Origin: Haloarcula rubra
GTDB taxonomy: Archaea; Halobacteriota; Halobacteria; Halobacteriales; Haloarculaceae
Direction of reading: 5' to 3'
Length of the DNA: 64,000 nucleotides
Assembly (NCBI RefSeq): GCF_019599465.1
Contig: NZ_RKLR01000008.1
Coordinates: 62,001-126,000 of the forward strand
Both the position numbers and the translations under genes were made by a program. Each line of letters starts with the position of its first letter. The first letter of the stretch is position 1. Positions 5,741-8,137 of the stretch are shown here, piece after piece. The notes beneath the pieces were generated by a model, which was given only the letters and a program-made list of their open reading frames with translations, ran no database searches and was not told the origin of the DNA.

Positions 5741-6113
5741 CGACAGTCGCTGTAGGACAGTAGTCCTTTTCGAATCCTCCGCCGGAGACCGTTCTCGAAA
5801 GTGTTGATGAATGTATAGATTGATTTCAGCGCGACGACTCTGCTTCTTTGTGTAGGTTCCTATCAAATCAGCTACTCAACGCACCTGCATACTGACCGGA
5901 AAAAGTCCTGCCAGTTCGATGGGATGTTAAGCGGGGCGTGCTGCACACAGGGCACGTATCGGCCATCAGTTCAGCACAGAATTTCCTCGAAATGAATCAT
6001 CAGTACAACCGGCGAAGACAGAAATCAGCTTAATTCGAGCCGACCGGTTTTATTTCTCTCACTGTTTTCAGCGATATTCTAAAGAACAGGGAGAGCAGTA
6101 TCGCTGTTGGGAT
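5741..6113. other. Intergenic between convergent genes, nothing supported
   Basis: A 373-bp gap between the 3' ends of the RHH-like gene and the rhomboid gene. Base composition turns AT-richer toward the rhomboid cassette. I see no reading frame with a recognisable domain, no tRNA and no repeat longer than a few bases. T-rich tracts near 5766 and 6048 could be part of transcription termination. Confidence 0.4.
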
Positions 6114-7340
6114 TTATCCAAACAGAGCAAGAGTCGAGAACTGTTCTCGAAGCTTTGGGCCGAGATACTTGCTTGTGAACCAAGCCGCCCCCATGACAAC
6201 TCCAATAAAGTGAGCTCCGGTAGCGACTCCAGGATTTGGTGTGATGTACCCAACAAACTCAAGAATAGATTTCAGGACAAGGATTAACGCTATAAAGAAA
6301 AGAACGATGTGCATCGCGGCCTTCCGGTACTGAGCCGGGTCGGCTTTCATAGCCTTGGAGTAGACTGCAAGCTGAAAAAGTACAAAATAGGTTTCTAAGG
6401 CGTTGGTGATTCCGCTAATACCGATACCAAATCCTCCAATACCCAGTATTCCAGTGGCAAGATTCGTGGTGTATCCGATAATGATAACTCCGATTACGAA
6501 TGTTTCCGTACCTGTCTTTCTCTCAGTCCAAGCGCCAAAGAGTGCGAATAACAGTGTGTTCTGGAAGATGTGGTTGTGTGTAGAGTGTAGCCAAGGGTTA
6601 AGCAAAAAGTAGCCTAAGTCAGGCAATTCCTCAATCGCAGTGAAAGCAGCGCTGGAGTCTATATTTCCGGCAATGATTAACTGCCCTACGTAGACAATAG
6701 CCATCAAAAGGAGTATTCCGATATTGCCGCGAATGCTGTAGAGAAATCCACTTATCGAGGGTCTGGTAAGCCTAAACCCTACATTTTCTTCTAAAAATTC
6801 CTGTCTTGTCGCGTAATCAGAATTCCTGAATTCGAGATTGTGAGCCTTAAGTTCGCCATATACGCTTGCAAACCGAAACAAGAAGACAATCACAAAGACG
6901 GCAAATGTGACATCTGCAGCAGCTGGAACGAGTTCTTGGACAAGCAGGAATAGACCGTATACGAGGAGTAGCAGTCCATATTCCAGCGAAAGTTCTTGAA
7001 ACGTCAGGTATACTCTGTAGGTCTGGCTAAGTTCATGGGCGAACGCAGCAATCAATAGTAGTCCGAATGCTCCAGCGAAAAGTTCGACCTGCTGTGCGAG
7101 TTCGCTACTTTGATCGCGAAGAATAATTGCTAATCCGGCTATCACTAAGCTAGCGACCAACAACGCCGAGTTGCGTTGTCGTTCTGAGATATCCTCATAC
7201 ACATCGTGACTTTCGACAATACTGAGTTGATGTACTGGATTGATGCCGATTTTTGTCACTAACTCTATGAGTAGAAGGAGTATCAGCCACCAAGAAATTA
7301 CAGGTTGCGGTACAATATTGAAAACCGAATCAAACAGCAT
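6114..7340 (-). CDS. Rhomboid-family intramembrane serine protease
   Basis: A 408-residue, very hydrophobic protein with roughly ten membrane helices. The C-terminal half carries the rhomboid signature: HSTHNHIFQNTLLFALFGAW (His/His...Asn, about residues 245-265), then GIGISGITN with the expected catalytic Ser in GxSG, and GAHFIGVVMG near the end with the catalytic His. Rhomboids cleave substrates within or next to a membrane helix. The N-terminal ~200 residues add extra helices, so it is longer than a minimal six-helix rhomboid. Its ATG overlaps the TAA of the zinc-ribbon gene at 7340-7453 (TAATG), so the two are translationally linked. The gene is AT-richer than the surrounding conjugation genes, which suggests separate acquisition. 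The substrate is unknown. Confidence 0.75.
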   Translation of the reverse strand: MLFDSVFNIVPQPVISWWLILLLLIELVTKIGINPVHQLSIVESHDVYEDISERQRNSALLVASLVIAGLAIILRDQSSELAQQVELFAGAFGLLLIAAFAHELSQTYRVYLTFQELSLEYGLLLLVYGLFLLVQELVPAAADVTFAVFVIVFLFRFASVYGELKAHNLEFRNSDYATRQEFLEENVGFRLTRPSISGFLYSIRGNIGILLLMAIVYVGQLIIAGNIDSSAAFTAIEELPDLGYFLLNPWLHSTHNHIFQNTLLFALFGAWTERKTGTETFVIGVIIIGYTTNLATGILGIGGFGIGISGITNALETYFVLFQLAVYSKAMKADPAQYRKAAMHIVLFFIALILVLKSILEFVGYITPNPGVATGAHFIGVVMGAAWFTSKYLGPKLREQFSTLALFG

Positions 7341-7453
7341 TATAGTTCATAGTCACAGTTCTTACACTTCTTGTTGGAAGTGAGGTTTGAACAGCGGCAT
7401 TCAGGACATGTCCACTGTCGAAGAGCCTTACCCTCATCGTCCTCATTGGTCAT
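7340..7453 (-). CDS. Tiny zinc-ribbon protein D (37 aa)
   Basis: This short frame reads ATG ... TAA for 37 residues and ends QWTCPECRCSNLTSNKKC then KNCDYEL. It has two CxxC pairs 14 residues apart, a rubredoxin-type zinc ribbon. It is the last of four consecutive tiny zinc-ribbon genes, and its stop overlaps the rhomboid start by one base. The same CPxC...NL..N..C..C core occurs in all four, so the frame is supported by paralogy as well as by the overlap. The function is unknown; such ribbons bind zinc and often mediate protein or nucleic-acid contacts. Confidence 0.75.
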   Translation of the reverse strand: MTNEDDEGKALRQWTCPECRCSNLTSNKKCKNCDYEL

Positions 7454-7464
7454 TATTCCACCTG

Positions 7465-7584
7465 TCAGAATTCATAACCACAGTTGGTGCACTCCTTGTT
7501 GCCGCGAAGATTACTTAACTGGCAGTCTGGGCACAGTTTCCGGCTATCATTGGTGAACTGTGGGTCGGAATCGTCATTACTCAT
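7465..7584 (-). CDS. Tiny zinc-ribbon protein C (39 aa)
   Basis: The chosen ATG at 7584 gives 39 residues beginning MSNDDSDPQF and ending KLCPDCQLSNLRGNKECTNC then GYEF. The upstream extension in this frame overlaps the preceding gene and has no paralogous counterpart, so it is rejected. The gene has two CxxC pairs and a short acidic N-terminus. It lies 11 nt upstream of ribbon D and 2 nt downstream of ribbon B on the same strand, consistent with one transcript. Confidence 0.75.
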   Translation of the reverse strand: MSNDDSDPQFTNDSRKLCPDCQLSNLRGNKECTNCGYEF

Positions 7585-7586
7585 AG

Positions 7587-7718
7587 TTAGAATCGGTGGC
7601 TGCAATCGGAGTTTGAGCACGTCTTGTTCTGCCGCAAGTTGTTTGTTCCACAGGCAGGACATTTCTTGTACGATTTCTGCACCAAACCATCAAAGATGTC
7701 GTCTGAGTGGTTAGTCAC
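7587..7718 (-). CDS. Tiny zinc-ribbon protein B (43 aa)
   Basis: A GTG start at 7718 gives 43 residues beginning MTNHSDDIFDGL, with KKCPACGTNNLRQNKTC followed by SNSDCSHRF. The second Cys pair is C-x4-C rather than C-x2-C, an insertion of two residues relative to its three relatives, but all four cysteines remain. One base separates its start from the stop of ribbon A, and two bases separate its stop from the start of ribbon C. The start 'MTN' resembles that of ribbon D (MTNEDDEG), which supports the GTG choice. Confidence 0.7.
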   Translation of the reverse strand: MTNHSDDIFDGLVQKSYKKCPACGTNNLRQNKTCSNSDCSHRF

Positions 7719-7719
7719 T

Positions 7720-7851
7720 TTAAAAGTTGGAGCCGCAACCGGAGCACTGATTATTTTGCTGAAGATTCGACTCTTTGCAGTCTGGACATTTTTTATAAGA
7801 GTTAGCCCTGATTTTTCTTTGAGGGTTACTATGTGATTTTTCCATAGGCAT
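7720..7851 (-). CDS. Tiny zinc-ribbon protein A (43 aa)
   Basis: ATG at 7851 gives 43 residues beginning MPMEKSHSNP, with KKCPDCKESNLQQNNQC and SGCGSNF at the end. It is the first gene of the four-ribbon/rhomboid operon. The N-terminus is basic (QRKIRANSYKK), unlike the acidic starts of the others. It is followed at once by ribbon B (stop TAA at 7720, next start GTG at 7718). The function is unknown. Confidence 0.7.
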   Translation of the reverse strand: MPMEKSHSNPQRKIRANSYKKCPDCKESNLQQNNQCSGCGSNF

Positions 7852-8137
7852 TACTATTTTGCTACTATTCTAAGCGGCAAAAACTTACTGTTAAATACAG
7901 CTTTTAGACTGGAGCTTTCCAATGAAAGACTGGAAAGTCAACTGGAGAGGATACAGCTGCCAGCTAGCTGTGTTCTAAATTCGCAAACGTACCTTTTCAG
8001 CCTCGGGTGAGTTCGCCTCGCTCGCCCACCGCTCGGCGCAAAAATCTACGTCAATAAGGCTGAACGCTCACTCCATTCGTGCGAATGCATGCTGGTCACT
8101 GCTTCGCCTGCTTTGAGTAGAAAATCGCTGACTAATT
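7852..8137. other. Gap upstream of the zinc-ribbon operon
   Basis: 286 bp that probably contain the promoter of the minus-strand zinc-ribbon/rhomboid operon. The base composition changes abruptly from AT-rich (7852-7950) to GC-rich (7990-8110), which looks like the boundary of an inserted cassette. A short inverted repeat (ACAGCT...AGCTGT, 7953-7971) is present. No gene is supported. Confidence 0.4.

Follow-up and report, generated by a model that had tools for sequence, protein, structure and literature searches.

Why should four genes for zinc ribbons of 37-43 residues stand in a row ahead of a gene with a rhomboid domain, inside the conjugation cluster of a haloarchaeon? Tiny zinc-finger proteins number in the dozens in haloarchaea, with 49 in Haloferax volcanii (PMC11241148), and the partners of nearly all such proteins are unknown. 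The locus considered here lies in a stretch of 64,000 nucleotides from Haloarcula rubra (hereafter the window), and its ribbons had been read, from the sequence of the window alone, as a diversified set of paralogues functionally linked to the rhomboid protease. We sought to determine which protein the ribbons actually accompany, how they are related to each other, and what kind of biochemical system they might form with that partner.

The ribbon genes, ZR1 to ZR4, are present as the original prediction described them: four minus-strand reading frames of 43, 43, 39 and 37 codons, separated by 1, 2 and 11 nt, the last of which overlaps through TAATG the minus-strand rhomboid gene (7340-6114) encoding a protein of 408 aa (Table 1). 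Their AT-richness relative to the surrounding conjugation cluster is likewise borne out: the ribbon genes have a GC content of 39-48% and the rhomboid gene one of 45%, compared with about 51-57% for the kilobases on either side. The borders of the deviating segment could be mapped. A six-frame scan of the 64-kb window for the core C-x2-C-x3-N-x6-C-x(2,4)-C returned exactly four places, corresponding to ZR1-ZR4, and a background of 400 kb of DNA from haloarchaea contained none. None of the four ribbons has a signal peptide or a transmembrane helix. ZR1 and ZR2 share a 26-nt direct repeat (77%).

Table 1. Features of the ribbon-rhomboid locus, in window coordinates
Feature	Position	Strand	Description	Basis
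Cargo segment	5842..8126		Stands where a Haloarcula pelagica plasmid has 1452 bp of unrelated genes	blastn against NZ_CP126164.1
Candidate archaeal TATA box TATTTAA	7891..7897	-	About 40 nt before ZR1	Sequence alone
ZR1	7720..7851	-	ATG start, 43 aa, single zinc ribbon, distal type	Distal profile 28.7 bits, proximal 16.7
ZR2	7587..7718	-	GTG start, 43 aa, single zinc ribbon, last knuckle C-x4-C, distal type	Distal profile 33.6 bits, proximal 16.5
ZR3	7465..7584	-	ATG start, 39 aa, single zinc ribbon, distal type	Distal profile 30.3 bits, proximal 19.6
ZR4	7340..7453	-	ATG start, 37 aa, single zinc ribbon, proximal type	Proximal profile 39.7 bits, distal 18.7
N-terminal five-helix membrane module	6831..7340	-	Residues 1-170 (about 15-170) of the 408-aa protein	Stand-alone homologues at nine intact loci
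C-terminal rhomboid domain	6114..6605	-	Residues 246-408 (~235-391; about 160 residues)	Pfam PF01694

The 408-aa protein proved to be composite. Its match to PF01694 spans residues 246-387 (E 1.4e-9; 38.8 bits against a cut-off of 22.6) and contains the motifs HIFQN (257-261), GISG (307-310) and AHFIG (376-380), of which we take the latter two to be catalytic from known rhomboid motifs; the serine of GxSG and the histidine occur in the right order, and judged by these motifs the protease is apparently complete. When the whole protein was compared with 391 haloarchaeal genomes, two separate groups of matches emerged. Stand-alone rhomboids aligned to residues ~204-405, and a second set of stand-alone proteins, 166-210 aa long, aligned to residues ~7-191, the best of them at 46-60% identity. 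As these matches are separate, and no other genome among the 391 has module and rhomboid in one protein, the N-terminal part constitutes an independent family. Nothing in Pfam, NCBIfam, PHROGs or PADLOC corresponds to the five-helix module, which thus represents a membrane family absent from all the libraries searched. The earlier description of a rhomboid-family gene accordingly holds for the C-terminal ~160 residues, and fails for the N-terminal module. A scan of genome contigs with the whole 408-aa protein gave no match, and an alignment of the module, used instead, uncovered four loci. The protein shares its domain and catalytic-type motifs with rhomboid proteases such as RhoI and RhoII of Haloferax volcanii (PMC9263693), but differs from them in the fusion to the five-helix module, which is seen only here.

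It is this module that the ribbons accompany. Stand-alone versions were found at eight other haloarchaeal loci and in two genomes of another class of the same phylum (G578 and G699), and all of these loci have one or two zinc-ribbon genes directly upstream on the same strand. There are two such genes in Natrialba chahannaoensis, Natrinema limicola, Halonotius aquaticus, Natrinema gari, G345 and a plasmid of Natrinema thermotolerans, and one each in G069 and G322; in the other class, a ribbon gene directly precedes both the intact module gene of G699 and that of G578 (L098), which has one in-frame TGA. The background frequency of a comparable small double-CxxC ORF upstream is 1 in 305 genes, and with the ribbons as query against 243 genomes, matches at E < 1e-8 were obtained only at module loci. 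The pairing of ribbons with the five-helix module across two archaeal classes is well supported, and the view that ribbon genes and a membrane-protein gene make up a conserved unit read in one direction is thereby sustained. Strong module matches occur in 8 of 392 genomes at the order level; since the family is so rare and patchy, the case for linkage comes from about ten loci of shared ancestry, and the linkage could be due to co-expression only. The open-licence literature on archaeal small zinc-finger proteins, rhomboids, RanBP2-type fingers and a dark-matter survey does not describe the ribbon-module pair, which within the literature searched is therefore previously undescribed. A set of tiny zinc-finger proteins thus gains a conserved partner.

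None of four weaker relatives of the module (L031, L032, L033 and L035; 185-219 aa, E about 5e-7 to 6e-10) is directly preceded by a ribbon gene, and these membrane proteins act as an outgroup. On a Halomontanus rarus plasmid, a truncated module relic (L037:6001-6162, residues 118-171) lies downstream of an S8 peptidase gene, showing that the ribbon-module unit is able to decay. The in-frame TGA of L098 may represent a decayed gene, a sequencing error or recoding.

The proposed linkage to the protease, on the other hand, found no support. Stand-alone rhomboids align to the C-terminal part of the 408-aa protein only, none of 10 intact stand-alone haloarchaeal rhomboid genes has a small double-CxxC gene upstream, an outcome that the original prediction had itself named as refuting, and all other ribbon loci are without a rhomboid. 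The protease is therefore not what keeps the ribbons; as their conserved partner it is ruled out, and a link between the two is possible solely via the fusion found in this one copy. That fusion does join a protease, with motifs of the kind expected in active rhomboids, to the ribbons' partner, so that ribbons acting as adaptors or substrates of the rhomboid itself could regulate it or bring substrates to it. In view of the distribution just described, and because a rhomboid would find no transmembrane helix to cut in the ribbons of the window, we consider such a role quite improbable.

The claim that the ribbons are diversified paralogues was confirmed in a more specific form. Scored with profiles of the ribbons proximal and distal to the module, ZR4 falls into the proximal type and ZR1-ZR3 fall into the distal one, with a gap of 11-21 bits, so that the window copy comprises one proximal ribbon and three distal-type ribbons. 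Among ZR1-ZR3 synonymous changes have reached saturation, so these are not recent copies of one another; comparisons of other copies with that of the window are likewise saturated. Purifying selection on the ribbons is evident among three Natrialbaceae copies, where the module has a dN/dS of 0.06-0.07, the proximal ribbon one of 0.06-0.21 and the single unsaturated pair of distal ribbons one of 0.10, the ribbon values being rough on account of the few sites. In close relatives the distal and proximal ribbons are separate genes, and in distant ones they form one double-ribbon protein: the module-adjacent gene of G345, Natrinema gari, G578 and G699 encodes two ribbons in one chain. The ribbon proteins of G699 and G578 and the longer one of G345, all from this same genomic place, score above the cut-off of the double zinc ribbon family (PF12773), whereas the window and Natrialbaceae ribbons are each a gene of their own. 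The occurrence of split and fused forms points to a joint function of the two ribbons, and the splitting of a double ribbon into separate genes and the rise to four ribbons provide a natural variant series.

How ribbons and module might be arranged was approached through topology and fold. A single-sequence AlphaFold prediction of the full 408-aa protein was too poor for use (pLDDT 45.8), and a model of the module from eight sequences was of good quality and gave five long helices (pLDDT 82.8, pTM 0.79). Lysines and arginines of the module are present in loops 1 and 3 and at the C-terminus and absent from loops 2 and 4, a distribution that indicates an N-out/C-in orientation; the inside loops are also better conserved than the others. 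With this orientation the rhomboid domain starts in the cytosol, where the ribbons, having no signal peptide, are also located. The distal ribbon of Natrinema limicola has an N-terminal hydrophobic helix followed by RRIKKRQKK, in line with its being held at the inner face of the membrane. The best fold match of the module in the PDB, detected with Foldseek, is the Orai calcium channel (probability 0.99, TM-score about 0.5, E 0.12); a sequence search for homology between module and Orai gave no match, and with this E-value and no sequence support the resemblance, which is one of structure only, is a lead from which no relationship is claimed.

On balance, we hold the chances to be roughly even that the locus is a plasmid-borne, enlarged form of a conserved two-part system, in which the ribbons are cytosolic subunits of the five-helix protein and this membrane partner has been fused to a rhomboid. 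We infer a physical complex in which the cytosolic ribbons, as small subunits, would most likely attach to those loops of the five-helix protein that face the cytosol, and would act as a sensor or adaptor controlling it. In the window copy the distal ribbon is present three times, and the five-helix partner is fused at its cytosolic C-terminus to the protease, which may make proteolysis the output of the module in this version and the fusion a possible read-out of its activity. More tentatively, and in our estimation with the odds against it, the unit may be an undescribed archaeal signalling system of the membrane. Its tiny single-domain ribbons would be obligate cytosolic subunits of the five-helix protein, possibly a channel with an Orai-like fold, and on this plasmid the system would have been redirected to an intramembrane protease.

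Known small zinc-finger proteins offer a different precedent. The C(P)XCG micro-proteins (Brz, HVO_2753, HVO_0758 and HVO_0416) are shorter than 70 aa, have two CPxC(G)-like knuckles and, like the window ribbons, often adjoin a functionally linked gene (PMC2253796, PMC11241148). The window ribbons fall within this descriptive class by length and by their two motifs, with the variants C-x4-C in ZR2 and CKNCD in ZR4, but do not match its named families (15 bits with the HVO_0416 model, whose cut-off is 80), and they have a fixed five-helix membrane partner that is absent from the descriptions in these two papers. They are predicted to bind zinc; several C(P)XCG proteins of Haloferax volcanii bind none (PMC11241148). 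The gene for Brz of Halobacterium, a small CPxCG protein, immediately precedes bop and is read in the same direction; Brz is required for bop mRNA, and its authors proposed that proteins of this kind may regulate the genes next to them (PMC2253796). By analogy, the ribbons could be local regulators of transcription or translation of the downstream membrane gene that form no complex with its product, an idea with which the weak similarity to solved ribbons such as rRNA-binding eL37 and the RNA-binding fingers of RBM5 and RBM10 would agree. We nevertheless regard it as unlikely: the ribbons share an apparent transcription unit with the supposed target, overlapping or almost touching its gene, no DNA-binding domain is seen in them, and the Natrinema limicola ribbon with its own hydrophobic helix is a poor fit to a DNA-binding regulator. 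ZR4 and the G578 ribbon also have the spacing W-x-C-x2-C-x3-N-x6-C-x2-C typical of RanBP2-type fingers (PF00641), which include that of ArnA in Sulfolobus; ZR4 scores 13.1, below the gathering cut-off of 27, and the ribbons are stand-alone proteins of 37-43 aa without the FHA domain of ArnA. A separate family of ~70-78 aa, combining one RanBP2-like ribbon with a C-terminal hydrophobic helix, was encountered at L072, L073, L075, L078 and L082, in genomes of family f6.

The flanks of the cargo segment are 89-92% identical to the same conjugation cluster of a Haloarcula pelagica plasmid, and across different haloarchaeal plasmids (L101-L106) the slot is variously filled by a DUF192 gene, an MFS transporter together with an ATPase, a TIR-domain gene (Salinigranum rubrum) or amphi-Trp/HalOD1. 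From the alignment borders and the other genes in the slot, the ribbon-rhomboid unit is a discrete cargo in a variable slot of an otherwise conserved haloarchaeal conjugation cluster. Elsewhere, module homologues lie in varied genomic places, some near restriction-type genes, and a role in defence comes to mind, with the five-helix protein, here together with the rhomboid, as a membrane-acting effector and the ribbons sensing infection or holding the effector inactive. The neighbours of the module include an HKD+Snf2 helicase and a type IIG enzyme in G345, GmrSD in G322 and a PLD nuclease in Natrinema gari, and the TIR-domain gene shares the plasmid slot. However, by PADLOC at 1e-15 about 5-6 of 58 neighbouring proteins against about 3 of 58 background proteins were defence hits, a small difference, between counts estimated from family lists, that shows no clear enrichment; the Halonotius copy stands between housekeeping genes, and PADLOC has no family matching the 408-aa protein or the stand-alone modules from G069 and G345. 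We would accordingly give the defence reading a low probability, and retain the ribbons as candidate subunits of the five-helix protein.

A viral origin received no support, in that module sequences had no match among viral contigs and the single PHROGs match, a weak one, was to ZR1 only. Imperfect 14-nt inverted repeats (6068-6081 and 8118-8131, 93%) were considered as mobile-element ends and set aside as too weak to claim; one of the two arms falls on the right-hand edge of the cargo segment, and no transposase is seen. In the Haloarcula pelagica conjugation cluster itself, an IS5-family transposase (L101:5829-6656) interrupts an Ig-like gene.
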